From: a virus
Direction: 5' to 3' (one strand)
IMG/VR virus record: IMGVR_UViG_3300032224_000353
Coordinates: 1-37,385 of that record
DNA length: 37,385 nucleotides
Made by a program: the position numbers and the translations under genes. Positions 1,832 through 8,094 of the stretch are shown piece by piece (positions within the stretch are counted from its first letter, which is position 1; every line of letters begins with the position of its first letter). A model generated the notes under the pieces. That model did not search any database. It saw nothing but the letters and a program-made list of their open reading frames with translations, and was not told the DNA's origin.

Positions 1832-3808
1832 TTATTTGGATTCAAGTTGTGCTACTCGTTTACGAAGTGATTGTATTTCTGCAATTAAATCAGCAATAAC
1901 TTCTGCTGTGCTTGCTTGCATAGCTTGATAAATTGGTTTTCCTTCAGCATCTACAGCATCTTTTTCGCCAGTAACGCTGTTTGGGTAAACTGTTTGAAAT
2001 TCGTGAGCCAAGAAACCACGAACAGATGTGTTGCCATCTTTCCATTGGTAATCAATTGGTTTAAGAGCATCGATTCGTTCGCCTTGACCTGTTACAGAAC
2101 CAACAACAGTTTTTAACCTGTAATCAGAGGTAGTGTTATAAACAGTTAAACCACCAGCACGATTGTAAGTAATTGAACCACGAAGAGTTGCAGAAGTTTC
2201 TGTATAAAACTGTAAAAATGTATTATCGCCAGTTGTATTTTTATGCCAAGCATTTACGCATTGAGCAGGTGCATTTCCACTTGCATTAATAAATAAAGAA
2301 GCAGCAGCATTATTTGATTGAGAAACAATAAATTTATCTGAACCACTTGTAGCGCCTACCAAGAAATTACCACTATTATCAAATATACCTCTAGGATTAC
2401 CAGCACCATCAGATAAAACAATGTAGCTACTTGCTGTACGGATGTCTAAGCCACCTTGATTGCCGTTATAAGCACCAATAATAGTATTACTAGCACCAGT
2501 TGTTACTAAATAGCCAGCACCAGAACCAACAAAAGTATTGCTTGTTCCTGTTGTTGCGGCAAGACCAGATTGATAACCTACAAAAGTATTTCCGTTGGCG
2601 GTACATACGTTGCCAGCAAAACCTCCAATAAAAGTAGAATAAGAACCTGTGGAGTTTGAATATCCTGATTGATAACCTAAAGCAGTTATTCCTGTACCTG
2701 TAGTATTTGTATACCCAGCTTGGTAACCGACTGCTGTATTATTAGATGCGGTGGTGTTTGAAACAAGTGCTGAATCACCAATGGCTACGTTGTATGAACC
2801 AGTATTGTTATATGCGGCTGAACGACCAATTGCTATGTTGCTTGCACCAGTACTATTTAAATATAATGCTCTCCAACCCATTGCTGTATTTGCACTTGCA
2901 GTTGTATTGTTATTTAATGCACCTTGACCAAATGCTACGTTATATGTTCCTGTGGTGTTTGCATACAAAGCGCTTTGACCAAATGCATCAATTCCACCAG
3001 TAGTATTAGCGTAACCAGCCTGATAACCTACTGCTGTGTTATTAGATGCTGTGGTGTTTTGATTTAATGCTTGGCGACCTACTGCTGTATTAGATGAACC
3101 ACTTGTATTAAGTTGAAGCGTAGCAGAACCAAATGCCGAATTAGTATTTCCTGTGGTTGCATTTAAAGCATAATAACCTACTGCTGTATTTTCTGAAGAT
3201 GTAGAATTTGAATATAATGCTCCACCGCCAACCGCCACATTGTATTGTGCAGTAGTATTACTATACCCAGCCTGATATCCAACTGCTGTGTTATTAGAGG
3301 CTGTGGTGCTGCTAAGTAAAGCATTATGCCCAATACCCACATTATTTGCACCTGAAGTATTACTACCTAATGCTTGTTGTCCAGCGGCAATATTGTAACT
3401 ACCAGTATTCACACCTAAAGAAGAGTTACCAATTGCAATGTTTTGACCACCTGTTAAATTTGTTGCATTTGCCCCATAACCAACTGCCACGTTATTTGCG
3501 CCACTTGTAGTTGATGTATTAGCGTTATAACCAATAGAAGTGTTATATCCAACACTTTGAGTTGCCGCACCAGCACCTAATCCTAATGTTGTACTTGTTG
3601 ATTGACTACCACCACCTTTACCTACAGTAAGACCTGATATAGTTGCGTCATTAGTTGACGTAATTGACAATGCGCTTACGGCTCGACCAGCAGTCAAATT
3701 AGCGACCGATACTTGTCTAGTCGTTGAACTTTGAACAATAGGTAAGACTTCGGTACCCGCAAGTGGGGTGGTTGAGGCGGGTAAAGCTGAAATTTTTAGA
3801 TCTGCCAT
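1832..3808 (-). CDS. Tail fibre with YadA-like repeats and C-terminal S74 chaperone
   Basis: A 658-aa fibre. Residues 1-40 (MADLKISALPASTTPLAGTE...) are a virion attachment module that recurs in the gene at 33202. Residues about 75-470 are tandem units of roughly 20-30 aa built on SNNTAVGYQAGYSNTT-type motifs, like the beta-helical heads of trimeric adhesins. The C-terminal 100 residues form an intramolecular chaperone of the endosialidase type (Peptidase_S74). SDYRLK begins near residue 561, and the Ser of that motif is the expected self-cleavage site. The protein ends in a coiled coil (IADLIAEIQSLRKRVAQLES). Known members of this family trimerise and then release the chaperone. It is probably the main host-recognition fibre. 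The start has GGAG just upstream, inside the end of the preceding gene. Confidence 0.92.
   Translation of the reverse strand: MADLKISALPASTTPLAGTEVLPIVQSSTTRQVSVANLTAGRAVSALSITSTNDATISGLTVGKGGGSQSTSTTLGLGAGAATQSVGYNTSIGYNANTSTTSGANNVAVGYGANATNLTGGQNIAIGNSSLGVNTGSYNIAAGQQALGSNTSGANNVGIGHNALLSSTTASNNTAVGYQAGYSNTTAQYNVAVGGGALYSNSTSSENTAVGYYALNATTGNTNSAFGSATLQLNTSGSSNTAVGRQALNQNTTASNNTAVGYQAGYANTTGGIDAFGQSALYANTTGTYNVAFGQGALNNNTTASANTAMGWRALYLNSTGASNIAIGRSAAYNNTGSYNVAIGDSALVSNTTASNNTAVGYQAGYTNTTGTGITALGYQSGYSNSTGSYSTFIGGFAGNVCTANGNTFVGYQSGLAATTGTSNTFVGSGAGYLVTTGASNTIIGAYNGNQGGLDIRTASSYIVLSDGAGNPRGIFDNSGNFLVGATSGSDKFIVSQSNNAAASLFINASGNAPAQCVNAWHKNTTGDNTFLQFYTETSATLRGSITYNRAGGLTVYNTTSDYRLKTVVGSVTGQGERIDALKPIDYQWKDGNTSVRGFLAHEFQTVYPNSVTGEKDAVDAEGKPIYQAMQASTAEVIADLIAEIQSLRKRVAQLESK
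2715..3311. repeat. Three near-identical 45-bp repeats inside the tail fibre gene
   Basis: Copies lie at 2715-2759, 3015-3059 and 3267-3311. Adjacent copies match at about 40 of 45 bases. Each encodes the TTASNNTAVGYQAGY unit. The spacings are 300 and 252 bases, both multiples of three, so recombination between copies would keep the frame. They are units of a longer, more diverged coding repeat, not a CRISPR array. Confidence 0.85.
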
Positions 3809-3976: not shown

Positions 3977-4275
3977 CGAATATTAATCGGTTTGCAATAC
4001 ACATCCCCGCCCGTACTAACTTGAATTGCACTTACACGCCATGGCGCGCCTGTGCCTGGTGGTACAGTAAAAGGAATTGGTGTATAGGCAGGTATTGGTG
4101 TGCTAGATGTAGTAGCAGTAACACCTTCACCTACTAAAATATATGCTGGTGTAGTTGACCATACAACCACACCTTGTGGGCCTGCTGCCCAAGTAGTTGT
4201 AGAACCTGCGGTGCCTGTGTATGAAACAGTAGCTCCAGGATAATTGGCATCGGCTAAAGGTCTAAGTAACTCCAT
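3973..4275 (-). CDS. Hypothetical structural protein, fibre module
   Basis: A 100-aa protein starting at ATG 4273-4275, chosen because AAGGAG sits about 8 bases upstream, directly after the stop of the HNH gene. An in-frame start 27 bases earlier lies inside the HNH gene and has no such site. The sequence is rich in Thr, Gly and Pro with no strongly charged stretch (TVSYTGTAGSTTTWAAGPQG; IPAYTPIPFTVPPGTGAPWR), consistent with a small beta-sandwich virion protein. It overlaps the next gene by four bases. A minor head or tail decoration role is an inference. Confidence 0.65.
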   Translation of the reverse strand: MELLRPLADANYPGATVSYTGTAGSTTTWAAGPQGVVVWSTTPAYILVGEGVTATTSSTPIPAYTPIPFTVPPGTGAPWRVSAIQVSTGGDVYCKPINIR

Positions 4276-4286
4276 TGTGTTTCTCC

Positions 4287-4760
4287 TTAAATTGCATGGC
4301 AAGCAAAACTGCCGTGGTATTTATTTCTAGCTTCAATAGCTACTAAATCTGCTAATTCTATATCGTCATAATAACCGAAAAAATTGTTTTTGCCTTTAAT
4401 ATTTAAAGTTACTCGCCATTTATTTTTGTTTTTGTTCCAATTTACATTTTTATACCCTGATGTATTGGTATTTTTAGCTCTAGCGTTTTGATTATTTGTT
4501 TTATATGTCGCAGCGCGTAAATTTTCAATATTATTGTTAATAGTATCTCTATCTATATGATCTACGATAGTAGGTAAAAAACCATAATGGTATAGATAAA
4601 TTAACCTGTGAATTAAATAAGTGTGTTTTTGATAGGTAATTTGTCTATATGTTTTGTTTTTTATAACCCTTGATGACCCCGCTTCTTTCATAGTTTTGTG
4701 ACGCCAAAATAATTTGCCGTCCTTATACTCAAAAAGTGTTTTTAATTCATTTTGTGTCAC
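4287..4760 (-). CDS. HNH homing endonuclease with AP2-like DNA-binding domain
   Basis: A 157-aa free-standing HNH endonuclease with the common phage N-terminus (LKTLFEYKDGKLFWRHK). The HNH core spans about residues 50-85: HRLIYLYHYG, IVDHIDRDTINNNIENLRAA. An AP2-type DNA-binding segment follows (NTSGYKNVNWNKNKNKWRV). Such genes spread by cutting alleles that lack them. The start is GTG at 4758-4760, overlapping the TGA of the upstream gene (GTGA). The region looks more AT-rich and Asn/Lys-rich than its neighbours, consistent with recent arrival. It interrupts the late operon without breaking a gene, and the downstream gene has its own ribosome-binding site. Confidence 0.9.
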   Translation of the reverse strand: MTQNELKTLFEYKDGKLFWRHKTMKEAGSSRVIKNKTYRQITYQKHTYLIHRLIYLYHYGFLPTIVDHIDRDTINNNIENLRAATYKTNNQNARAKNTNTSGYKNVNWNKNKNKWRVTLNIKGKNNFFGYYDDIELADLVAIEARNKYHGSFACHAI

Positions 4761-5119
4761 GATAAAAATCTAAGTTTATATAATGTTGATAAGTATAAAT
4801 CAACTATGTTATCAATCAAGTTTTGCATTGGCGAATCGTCTTTATCACATACATCATATCTTGACGCTTCAATTTCTGCAAGTTGTGATTCTAAAAATTC
4901 AATAATATTTGATGTTTTTTTGGCTGACATTAAACTAATTGGGCCTATTAGACCGTGCCGACCCTGATATGCCTCAGCAAAATCATCCGCAACATCAATA
5001 ACATTTTCATAAAATTTTTGTAAAGCCTTATGTTTAGCATAACTGCGGGTATTTAAATGCACCGAATGGGCGACATCCCTAGCTAAAAATAACATTCCGA
5101 CAAAATCACAAGCATTCAT
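4757..5119 (-). CDS. DUF5856-like conserved phage protein
   Basis: A 120-aa, mostly helical protein resembling, from memory, the phage family DUF5856. Recognisable stretches are MLFLARDVAHSVHLNTRSYA near the start and FAEAYQGRHGLIGPI near the middle. Family members sit near portal and terminase genes, and no biochemical function is known to me. The conserved His and acidic residues on predicted helices could suggest a ferritin-like metal-binding bundle, but this is speculation. The ATG overlaps the portal stop (TAATG), so it is translationally coupled to the portal gene. Confidence 0.75.
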   Translation of the reverse strand: MNACDFVGMLFLARDVAHSVHLNTRSYAKHKALQKFYENVIDVADDFAEAYQGRHGLIGPISLMSAKKTSNIIEFLESQLAEIEASRYDVCDKDDSPMQNLIDNIVDLYLSTLYKLRFLS

Positions 5120-7359
5120 TATTGCATCCCTTCAGGTGGTGCCATTGGCATTTGTTCTTGGCCTTGCATTGGTGGTTCTTGCATAGGCATCTGCGGTGGT
5201 TGCTCATCTTCTTGCATATTCATTCTTTGGTCGTTTTGTGACCCAGAAATAAGGTCGCCCGTATCAATTGCAGCGTGGATTGTTCCCATCACAATGTCAT
5301 GGATTTGATCAGGTGACATAGACGCTTGAATTGCACTAATTCGCTTGGTTTCAGCATCAAACATTTTAATTTGTGCCTCAAAATCCTTGCGCTCAATGTC
5401 TTGCATCTCCATTGATTTGCTAACATTTTGCAACATCGTGTGCATTTGTTCCATTTCTTGACTCATTGCCTGAATTTGTTGCTCGGCAGCCTGTAATTCA
5501 GGTGATTTATCGTCGTTAGACAACAATTTTGGGTCAATTGTCTTAGCAAACCGTTGTGACATCTCTTGGGCGCCAGGCCAGTCCATATTTTTGATGAATA
5601 AATCGCCTGCAACTGACCAAAGTTGTGGGTTTCCTTGCAATAATTGGCTCATGGCGTCCAAAGCTTCTTGACGTTTAGTCATATAACTTGGGCCTGTCGT
5701 TACACAAACGTCGTAAGTACCGACGCTTGGGTTATACACTTTTTCCATCACAATTCCTTGCTGATCCATAATTTTTTTAACAGGTTCAGGTTGTGTTGGA
5801 TTGATTTTTACCATGCCGATTTCGCCGTCTAAGCCCACAATACGAGCAATCCGCTCTGTATCGTAAATTTTAGGAATCATATCGACTAATTGACGGGTAA
5901 TATGGCGAATTGCGCGGGATAAGTTATCAATATAATGATATGTACCTGTATCGCCTTGCTTTTCGCGTGCAAGAATAGCTTTCCCCGAGCGTTCGTTGCT
6001 TGTGGCACCTAAGCTCGAGTCATACTGTCCAGTTGTGGACTTGATATCATCACTTGCGCCTGCCTTAGCTTGTAATAAACCACTTGAAGCCATCGGCGGT
6101 TGAGCGCGTTGCGGTAATGGTAATGACCCACCCATACCGTCGGTTACGTCAGGATTAACTTCTAAATACGGCCAATTGGTTGTATTGGCTGTTTTCCATT
6201 GTTGTTCATAGCCTTCAAACTGACCGCCGTATCCAATAAACGGTGCTTTGGGCGCCAAAGCAAGCATTTCAGCTTCTTGCGATACCCAATAGTTATACAT
6301 CCGTTGCGCGTCTTTGGCATTTCTAACCAAGCCTGACACATAAATACGGCCATCAACTTCAAATTCGTTACCAATCACACGAACGACAGGAATCCATTTG
6401 CCTGCCCATTCTCTTTCTTCCAATACTTCAAAGCCGTTGGTTTTCATCCACATAACTTTTTTAACATCAACCATTCGACTCTTGATTGGCTTTAAACCCA
6501 TCATTTTCATCTGTCTATCTTCAGGCGAGTTATTAAAATGACTCATATTGCCTGGGTAAAGATTAAGTTTTGTCGGTATATGCTTGTAGTAAAAATACTC
6601 AGCAATACGAATGGTATTTTCATTAATCCATTGGCTAAGTGACGAATCACCTACGCCTTGCGCAATCATTGAACTGATTGGTGCAGCATCAGGAAACTGT
6701 CTTTCGTATTCTTCTTTGGTTAAATCTTCAGTAATAAAACAATACTCAGCGTCAGACCCGCATGGGTCTTGAATCATTGGATCCATGTACACGCTAAATG
6801 CGTTACGAATACGACCAATGCGTAAGTCTTGATCAAATGAATTATCGTTACAGTATTCTGTCAGGATGCGGATATAACCTTCACCATAGGTGACTTGGTT
6901 TTCACACGCTGTATCGTACGCTACATCAGCGTCCGATATGTACTCGATATGGCGTACCATACCATCAAATATCTCTGCTACTTCCACATCAGCTTTATCG
7001 TCCGCAGGAATAACTTTTCCAGAGGGTCGATTTTGACGTTGTTCGTTAGTTACTTGCCTGACGTGTTGTGGCAGTTTGTTAATCGTCAAACATGGTCTAG
7101 CATTAATGGTTTGCCCTTGAACAGATCCGCGAGTTGCTAACACATCCGCAGGCCATTGCCAGCCATTGTCAGGAGATCCCGCCATAAATCTTAAATCGTC
7201 TAATTCATCTTCGCGCGACTCAGAGTATGCAGACATCGCCGTAGTAAACCGTGATCGCATAGCAGAAAGAACATCTTTAGGGTCTTCTGCTGTTGTGGGG
7301 TTACTACCAACGTCAGCTACTTTAGCGACAATATTCATTGATGATTGATCATACGCCAT
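5119..7359 (-). CDS. Portal protein, P22 type
   Basis: A 746-aa portal protein of the P22 gp1 class, forming the dodecameric ring at one head vertex through which DNA is packaged and ejected. The length fits P22 (about 725 aa). Family-like stretches are LPQHVRQVTNEQRQNRPSGK near residues 94-113, NQVTYGEGYIRI, and GKAILAREKQGD in the middle. A long helical, Gln/Met/Glu-rich region (about 620-690) is followed by a low-complexity Met/Pro/Gln tail, resembling the P22 portal barrel. The start at 7357-7359 overlaps the end of the upstream HNH gene by 11 bases in another frame. Its first ten codons are duplicated at the start of that HNH gene. Confidence 0.95.
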   Translation of the reverse strand: MAYDQSSMNIVAKVADVGSNPTTAEDPKDVLSAMRSRFTTAMSAYSESREDELDDLRFMAGSPDNGWQWPADVLATRGSVQGQTINARPCLTINKLPQHVRQVTNEQRQNRPSGKVIPADDKADVEVAEIFDGMVRHIEYISDADVAYDTACENQVTYGEGYIRILTEYCNDNSFDQDLRIGRIRNAFSVYMDPMIQDPCGSDAEYCFITEDLTKEEYERQFPDAAPISSMIAQGVGDSSLSQWINENTIRIAEYFYYKHIPTKLNLYPGNMSHFNNSPEDRQMKMMGLKPIKSRMVDVKKVMWMKTNGFEVLEEREWAGKWIPVVRVIGNEFEVDGRIYVSGLVRNAKDAQRMYNYWVSQEAEMLALAPKAPFIGYGGQFEGYEQQWKTANTTNWPYLEVNPDVTDGMGGSLPLPQRAQPPMASSGLLQAKAGASDDIKSTTGQYDSSLGATSNERSGKAILAREKQGDTGTYHYIDNLSRAIRHITRQLVDMIPKIYDTERIARIVGLDGEIGMVKINPTQPEPVKKIMDQQGIVMEKVYNPSVGTYDVCVTTGPSYMTKRQEALDAMSQLLQGNPQLWSVAGDLFIKNMDWPGAQEMSQRFAKTIDPKLLSNDDKSPELQAAEQQIQAMSQEMEQMHTMLQNVSKSMEMQDIERKDFEAQIKMFDAETKRISAIQASMSPDQIHDIVMGTIHAAIDTGDLISGSQNDQRMNMQEDEQPPQMPMQEPPMQGQEQMPMAPPEGMQ
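7330..7359 (-). repeat. 30-bp portal-start repeat, copy in the portal gene
   Basis: These bases encode MAYDQSSMNI at the start of the portal. They match 7856-7885 at 27 of 30 positions. The three differences (7339, 7351 and 7354) are all third-position synonymous changes. Confidence 0.95.
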
Positions 7360-7885
7360 ATTGGTTACACTTTCTTACGTTATCTGCACCAAGTATAACT
7401 TGTAAATTTAATGGTACGTGTAACCCCGATACTTTTTTACCACGCAAAGGAATAATATGATCAACGTGCCAAGGTTCTTTGTTTTCACGGGTTAGCATCG
7501 CCGCAATAGAATATATACTTTCTATTTTTAATTTATCAAAATCAGTTAGCCATGATGGTGTACGGTTATCTTTAGCGCTTCGATAATTTGCAGTCCATAA
7601 ATTGCGTTTGTCTTTATTTTTTTGAATATATTTTTGCGTGTAATTTAATGACTTTTTAGCATTACCTTGACGCCAATCACGGTTGTACGCGTAAACTTTA
7701 TTGGAGTTTTTGGCTTTATTAGCGCTAGCATTTCCACAAACACAACACGTTTTATTACCAGTATAGCGTTCAGATATATGCCCTTGTTTGCAGGGTATAT
7801 TTGTAAAATATCGAGTTAATCCTTGAAGAATAGCATCTTGTCTATTAATTAACTTAATATTCATCGATGATTGATCGTAGGCCAT
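7349..7885 (-). CDS. HNH endonuclease carrying a copy of the portal N-terminus
   Basis: A 178-aa HNH endonuclease. Residues 1-10 (MAYDQSSMNI) are identical to the first ten residues of the downstream portal. A zinc-ribbon-like part follows (CKQGH near 32-36, CCVCG near 47-51), then a basic middle segment, then the HNH core HVDHIIPLRG near 140-149 with LNLQVI near 159-164. The HNH gene thus appears inserted after codon 10 of an ancestral portal gene, with the portal start regenerated behind it. It overlaps the portal start by 11 bases. Its ATG overlaps the upstream stop (TAATG), and neither it nor the portal shows a strong ribosome-binding site. Mobility is inferred; family membership is clear. 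Confidence 0.9.
   Translation of the reverse strand: MAYDQSSMNIKLINRQDAILQGLTRYFTNIPCKQGHISERYTGNKTCCVCGNASANKAKNSNKVYAYNRDWRQGNAKKSLNYTQKYIQKNKDKRNLWTANYRSAKDNRTPSWLTDFDKLKIESIYSIAAMLTRENKEPWHVDHIIPLRGKKVSGLHVPLNLQVILGADNVRKCNQYGV
7856..7885 (-). repeat. 30-bp portal-start repeat, copy in the HNH gene
   Basis: These bases encode MAYDQSSMNI at the start of the HNH gene, and are a direct repeat of 7330-7359 separated by 496 bases. Only synonymous positions differ (Ala GCC/GCG, Tyr TAC/TAT, Ser TCG/TCA). Confidence 0.95.
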
Positions 7886-8094
7886 TATTTTTTCTTTGCT
7901 AAAATTTTGTTTGCTTTAGCATCAATTTTTGATTTGCTTGATGGGCTTAATTTACCCGCTTTTACTTCTTGTGTAGCTCTTGCTTTAGCATTAGCGGCGT
8001 GCGCTCTATCAGGCATCGGATATTTGCGTGAGCTTGGCATACCAAATTCAGATTTAGCCAATGCGTTGCGTGACTTAGTTGTTATCTTGCTCAT
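7885..8094 (-). CDS. Small basic protein between terminase and portal
   Basis: A 69-aa, strongly basic, Lys/Ala/Ser-rich protein. It contains FGMPSSRKYPMPDRAHAANA near residues 17-36 and ends in KANKILAKKK. ATGA overlap with the gene upstream and TAATG overlap with the HNH gene downstream indicate coupled translation. Similar short proteins recur between terminase and portal in related phages. The composition suggests DNA or nucleoid binding, or a minor internal head protein; this is inference. Confidence 0.7.
   Translation of the reverse strand: MSKITTKSRNALAKSEFGMPSSRKYPMPDRAHAANAKARATQEVKAGKLSPSSKSKIDAKANKILAKKK

Follow-up and report, generated by a model that had tools for sequence, protein, structure and literature searches.

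In fungal mitochondria, endonuclease genes known as mORFs (in atp6 of Allomyces and in atp6, atp9, cox2, and nad3 of Glomus) insert together with a foreign gene end and displace the native one, and silent-only differences between one such atp6 end and a relative have been reported (PMC3630166). In bacteriophages, the sections of a T4 review considered here (PMC2988022) describe the seg and mob endonuclease genes as promoterless, located between essential genes, and overlapping their neighbors (by 11 bp for segF and 20 bp for segC). According to the same sections, free-standing T4 endonucleases co-convert flanking markers, and one-sided homing in td crosses leaves joints at microhomology. Nuclease genes have also been described at the boundaries of phage exchange (PMC10448857), and a GVE2-like HNH gene lies between terL and the portal gene in the packaging module of lactococcal Skunavirus (PMC12724721).

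Here, we analyzed a 37,385-nt stretch of DNA from a single virus record (IMGVR_UViG_3300032224_000353), the whole of which we refer to as the window, and in which an HNH endonuclease gene begins with a near copy of the start of the portal gene behind it. Like the mORFs, this HNH gene appears as a nuclease inside an essential gene, with a hybrid target and the native end displaced beside the nuclease; whereas mORFs replace the 3' end and leave the native end downstream, the 5' end is affected here, and the native piece lies upstream, where it forms the nuclease's start (PMC3630166). By analogy, the window HNH gene would work like an mORF, as its mirror image at the other end of a gene. With the T4 seg and mob genes it shares the overlap with a neighbor and the co-conversion of a flank; the T4 cases differ in overlapping the upstream gene or splitting host genes (mobE in nrdA, mobA in gene 60), and the sections considered yielded no endonuclease that bears its target's displaced start (PMC2988022). 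The Skunavirus HNH gene likewise sits near the portal gene, but it is fixed and probably related to packaging, whereas the window gene is sporadic, mobile, and accompanied by a swapped portal start (PMC12724721). In an open-access library (subscription papers lay outside this search), we found no description of a phage endonuclease that starts with its neighbor's start.

The HNH and portal genes share their first ten codons

The following features of the window are central to the analysis:

7349..7885, minus strand: gene for a 178-aa HNH endonuclease; its beginning is the start of the resident portal gene, and it ends inside the new portal start
5119..7359, minus strand: P22-like portal protein gene, 746 aa; apparent hybrid of a donor 5' tract and the resident remainder
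7856..7885, minus strand: upstream copy of portal codons 1 to 10, the displaced start of the resident portal gene, now the HNH N-terminus
7330..7359, minus strand: downstream copy, codons 1 to 10 of the portal gene as it now stands, putatively a donor allele
7856..7864, minus strand: ATGAATATT, portal codons 8 to 10 (MNI), the interval predicted to hold the left recombination joint
7349..7359, minus strand: 11-base overlap ATGGCGTATGA, containing the portal start and the HNH stop codon
7048..7359, minus strand: putative donor (co-converted) 5' tract of the portal gene, with a diffuse right edge
7885..8094, minus strand: 69-aa lysine-rich ORF with a match to PHROG 16160; its TAA overlaps the captured ATG (TAATG)

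A sequence-only reading of this DNA had claimed that the HNH and portal genes both begin MAYDQSSMNI, that 27 of the 30 bases match with all three differences synonymous, and that the end of the HNH gene and the portal start have 11 bases in common. The minus-strand ORFs and a direct comparison of the two starts confirmed these claims, with the overlap at positions 7349-7359. The 178-aa HNH ORF opens with ATGGCCTACGATCAATCATCGATGAATATT, and the 746-aa portal ORF, which strongly matches P22_portal (Pfam PF16510, E 1.5e-177), opens with ATGGCGTATGATCAATCATCAATGAATATT; the three silent differences (HNH/portal) are GCC/GCG, TAC/TAT, and TCG/TCA. The chance of a match of at least 27 of 30 bases between the two starts is 1e-13 per position pair, and shuffling of the two 200-bp regions in 300 trials gave a best 30-mer match of 22. 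The certain capture by the HNH gene evidently comprises portal codons 1 to 7, with codons 8 to 10 ambiguous because MNI resembles the native start of HNH relatives too. An assembly artifact was ruled out, given that two other loci (L082 and L083), on contigs from other metagenomes, carry the same joint.

HNH-less relatives display the empty site

Our search found 80 portal relatives, including the HNH-less locus L002, whose portal gene is 97% identical to that of the window; HNH-less alleles are also present in L003 and L004. The empty site of L002 reads, in succession, AAGAAAAAATA, ATGGCCTACGACCAATCATCGATGAATATT, and GTCGGC, and the 69-aa ORF there runs straight into the portal gene via TAATG, the same bases that precede the window's HNH gene. 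Over 414 bp, the 5' flank of the window HNH gene is 97.6% identical to L002, and the match breaks off directly behind ATGAATATT; the left joint can be resolved to this interval and no finer. In addition, the HNH-side copy matches the L002 portal start at 29 of 30 bases in the window and at 30 of 30 in its sister L082. Because the left flank and the copy both match the empty locus, we identify the first ten HNH codons as the old start of the resident portal gene. By this alignment, the native copy is the HNH-side one and the foreign copy is the portal-side one.

The expectations of the sequence-only reading that an HNH-less relative would carry the portal start and that the repeat match would reach exactly to the insertion point thus both hold in L002. 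That reading had offered two alternatives, namely insertion after portal codon 10 with the portal start rebuilt, or arrival of the HNH gene with the 5' end of a donor portal; both appear correct, as halves of one event, with the joint placed within codons 8 to 10. It had also attributed the silent divergence to either donor origin or selection on the peptide. Donor origin stands, as the comparison is one of a resident with a donor allele, and selection is unneeded, the L082 copy being still identical to the empty-site portal start.

Compared with the window and L082, L002 has ~136 extra bases (~1308-1444) among small lysine/alanine-rich ORFs upstream of the portal gene. Short ORFs of this kind look duplicated in L003.

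The 5' tract of the portal gene appears to be foreign

Portal identity between the window and L002 is 76.2% over nt 1-240, 87.9% over nt 241-480, and 94.2% over nt 481-1900 (Fisher p 6e-16), while pairs of empty loci show no comparable 5' drop (85 versus 90% for L002/L003, and 81 versus 81% for L002/L004). The best change-point falls at portal nt 312 for window/L002 and at nt 198 for L082/L002, and the right edge of the putative donor tract is diffuse because nt 241-480 are intermediate in identity. These comparisons indicate that the 5' tract of the window's portal gene (150-310 bases) is foreign and is followed by resident sequence again. The first 150 portal bases are also the more divergent part in the pairs L018/L020, L006/L020, L017/L020, and L007/L020, so part of the drop reflects a generally variable region; the fall from 94% or 96% is far steeper and lies where it would be expected. 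In the search for a donor for the window, the nearest GroES-type HNH gene was 63-64% identical, with none closer, and the best portal match to the foreign tract reached 77% identity.

A target-site or simple tandem duplication of the portal start upon insertion, followed by silent drift, would account for the 30-bp direct repeat that flanks the HNH gene with only three differences. The two copies are not sisters, however, as the HNH-side copy matches L002 and the portal-side copy lies within the foreign tract, and relatives have the same HNH slot without the repeat, so that we regard a duplication as highly improbable.

Portal codon 6 encodes Ser in all 7 distinct HNH-carrying portals (L006, L008, L010, L018, L083, L118, and the window) and Thr in 8 of the 11 HNH-less ones (p 0.004). 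This Ser may have hitch-hiked with the HNH gene or may reflect a difference in resistance to cleavage.

Related HNH genes follow GroES in donor-type loci

In L006, L008, L010, L018, and L118, a related HNH gene lies directly before the portal gene, behind GroES where the contig extends far enough (GroES in L118 was read only in part). The HNH genes of these donor-type loci lack a portal-like N-terminus and have starts of their own, such as ATGCTTAG or a TTGA that overlaps the stop of GroES; they show the same ATGNNNTATGA overlap with the portal gene. The GroES/HNH joint carries GGAATATTAG or ATGAACATAATT, and more distant HNH members begin M-N/D/E-I-x-x-R. The MNI of portal codons 8 to 10 evidently coincides with a natural HNH beginning. 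At the left joint, the GroES frame of the window retains ATA TTA AGT TAA (I-L-S-stop), to be compared with the GroES tail G-I-L-D-stop; based on 7-9 bases, this might be a GroES remnant, a suggestion and nothing firmer.

In GroES-type loci without an HNH gene (L020, L021, L007, L015, and L017), GroES ends GILNGV/GILNAL-stop inside the portal start, using the frame that the HNH gene uses in HNH carriers.

The HNH stop codon lies inside the portal gene

The HNH gene stops at the TGA within TAT GA of portal codons 3-4. Across 18 loci, portal codon 3 is TAT in all 12 with an upstream HNH or GroES gene stopping there and TAC in all 6 without one. The empty L002, L003, and L004 have TAC GA at these codons, and their alleles are unable to stop the HNH gene here because codon 3 is TAC. 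Since the HNH stop codon sits inside it, the donor portal start had to come along.

This layout extends to the HNH family: in 42 of 72 cases, a member and the gene that follows share 5-20 bases (mostly 8 or 11), as against 14 of 146 other gene pairs on the same contigs; when related targets are merged, the overlap is present in 5 of 14 versus 3 of 46 clusters (p 0.013). Members of the HNH family seem, albeit at modest strength, habitually to bring along the 5' end of their target. The frequent placement of the stop inside the target would account for joint movement of the nuclease with that 5' end. Capture of the displaced start on the other side is, by sequence comparison, special to the clade of the window, L082, and L083. 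Family members whose stop is located inside the downstream gene have no stop of their own.

The HNH stop often falls 8 or 11 bases inside unrelated targets, including portal, terminase-like MAELSWSLLPWQ, MGNRFASGKN, and others, and HNH loci with the stop inside the next gene include L085, L108, L117, L132-L147, and L150. The conserved C-terminal K-G-N codons of the HNH genes (AAAGGN) resemble a ribosome site for the next ATG.

The HNH protein and its start codon

The 178-aa protein matches an HNH/endonuclease-VII-like nuclease family (PHROG 1035, E 5e-16). Its Pfam HNH match scores 15.3 bits, below the 21.4 cut-off, and 8 of 13 HNH family members have such a match at E<=0.1. Residues D142, H143, N160, N169, and N174 are invariant across 13 HNH relatives, giving the D-H...N...N/H pattern of a beta-beta-alpha metal nuclease. 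The predicted structure places strands at 139-143 and 161-165 and a helix at 166-171, with modest confidence (mean pLDDT 72.7, pTM 0.40), and Foldseek with this model returned no match at E<=0.001. We classify the protein as an HNH-type nuclease by its PHROG match and invariant residues.

The phage endonuclease F-CphI (ORF177) is similar in size, is likewise a free-standing phage gene, and has its nuclease motif in the C-terminal half; it belongs to the DHHRN family, defined by a DHDH core between CX2-4C and CX2C, then N (PMC6083498). The window protein differs in its HVDHII core, in the HNH-type ...N...N pattern, and in having cysteines only before the core, with no pair after it. The F-CphI (DHHRN) type was rejected for the window protein, the DHDH core and the following CX2C being absent.

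In the HNH frame, the two portal-derived ATGs are the only ATG, GTG, or TTG codons before residue 130, and the HNH gene depends on the captured start because it has no other start codon in that interval. This supports the proposal of the sequence-only reading that the endonuclease borrowed the portal's translation start. The dN/dS of the HNH gene is 0.12-0.18; therefore, the protein is maintained by purifying selection. One scan of bacterial and archaeal genome contigs found no relative.

The HNH gene has moved between phage lineages

The L083 HNH protein is 90% identical to that of the window and starts MAYDQSNMNI. Its left flank is that of the empty L004 (TSRQNEKI MAYDQSNMN-), with identity to L004 ending within ATGAA, and the portal genes of L083 and L004 are 65% identical over nt 1-150 and 96% thereafter (p 9e-15). 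The window and L083 have a synonymous divergence of 0.31 for HNH versus 1.77 for terL. Because of this contrast, we conclude that the HNH gene has moved horizontally, more recently than the phage genomes diverged. Between the window and L082, the corresponding values are 0.07 for HNH, zero for portal nt 1-195, 0.23 for the later portal, and 0.37 for terL.

One variant of the homing explanation holds that the start was captured only once and that two-sided recombination between captured-type and empty phages, through the 30-base copies, then produced L083 secondarily; we lean slightly toward it. The joints of the window and L083 agree within a few bases, and it is unlikely that the same illegitimate joint would arise twice at the same bases. 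Moreover, the two HNH genes are 91% identical while both flanks are only ~75-80% identical, and L083 has its left break within the captured copy and its right break within or just after the portal-side copy. On the other hand, with 6 mismatches in 30 bases, the left copies of the window and L083 offer poor homology for recombination; ATGAATATT, being the best microhomology, could recur as a joint; and the L083 portal tract is closest to the GroES-type locus L010 (79%), which suits a separate donor. For the origin of L083, the identical joints thus favor transfer, and the different portal tracts favor separate donors.

The L083 start also bears on whether MAYDQSSMNI is a leader peptide useful to the nuclease (in targeting or through a nascent-chain effect) and arose by convergence or selection. 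Every difference between the two copies is silent, as selection would predict, but related HNH proteins in the same slot do not have the peptide, and the N at position 7 of L083 follows its own resident portal. In addition, HNH residues 1-9 are modelled at pLDDT ~40, and the copy is too recent to reveal selection. We consider a selected leader very unlikely.

A pattern scan of 2.9 million viral contigs sought further HNH genes that start like their neighbor, as the sequence-only reading had envisaged, and uncovered captured starts only in L082 and L083, together with one unrelated chance match (L110). The same reading had allowed that a portal-like start might be a general HNH feature. Flanking-repeat scoring of 84 distinct HNH loci revealed no captured start outside the clade of the window, L082, and L083, to which capture is confined among these loci. 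Two other HNH loci, L167 and L168, have short repeats of 11-14 bases.

Other genes of the window

A second HNH gene (HNH_3 with a weak AP2 match) lies at 4287-4760 on the minus strand, two genes downstream of the portal gene. At its 5' end, the GTG start shares bases with the stop of a DUF5856 gene (GTGA). At its 3' end, the TAA overlaps AAGGAG, the ribosome site of the following gene, which probably starts at the ATG at 4275 and not at the listed TTG. A 658-aa tail-fiber-like ORF at 1832-3808, also on the minus strand, carries a repeated NTAVGYQAGYxNTT-type motif, and its end region resembles, by eye only, an intramolecular chaperone.

One-sided homing as the best explanation

We judge it very probable, given the alignments above, that one-sided homing brought a free-standing HNH homing endonuclease gene into the 5' end of the portal gene. 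The nuclease would nick or cut HNH-less portal alleles near the 5' end, and the break would be repaired by copying from a GroES-HNH-portal donor. On the right side, closure in portal homology would deliver a new portal start with the HNH stop codon. On the left side, the GroES flank of the donor would have no counterpart in the recipient, and because the recipient has no GroES there, the joint would form at short homology in ATGAATATT. The HNH gene would gain the resident portal start as its own, TAATG-coupled to the upstream gene, and the portal coding sequence would stay complete.

The locus shows the properties of a free-standing homing endonuclease: no intron or intein, HNH-less cognate alleles, and co-conversion with horizontal spread. 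A nuclease gene behind a short 5' coding piece of an essential gene would also be expected for an intron, an intein, or a ribosome-bypass element whose first exon is codons 1-10. Yet no Rfam match occurs anywhere in the window, the insert is HNH coding sequence throughout, and the neighboring ORFs are complete, including the portal ORF, which has a start of its own, all of which leaves such an element as the least credible of the explanations considered.

Within the one-sided homing explanation, it is conceivable, though we hold it as a tentative idea, that each transfer must carry the target's 5' end and that the HNH cassette, lying between two portal-start repeats as homology arms, could home between phages that differ upstream. 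If true, this HNH family has built its target gene's start into itself.

The locus would provide natural, base-level evidence from phages for one-sided homing, with joint, insert, and co-converted tract following one another between stretches of resident sequence, and with empty relatives for two lineages. It would show how a selfish nuclease can enter an essential structural gene and leave it unbroken by carrying a replacement start, and how a nuclease can gain a new start codon during entry. A nuclease gene whose beginning resembles that of its downstream neighbor may serve as a practical sign of recent homing in metagenomes.
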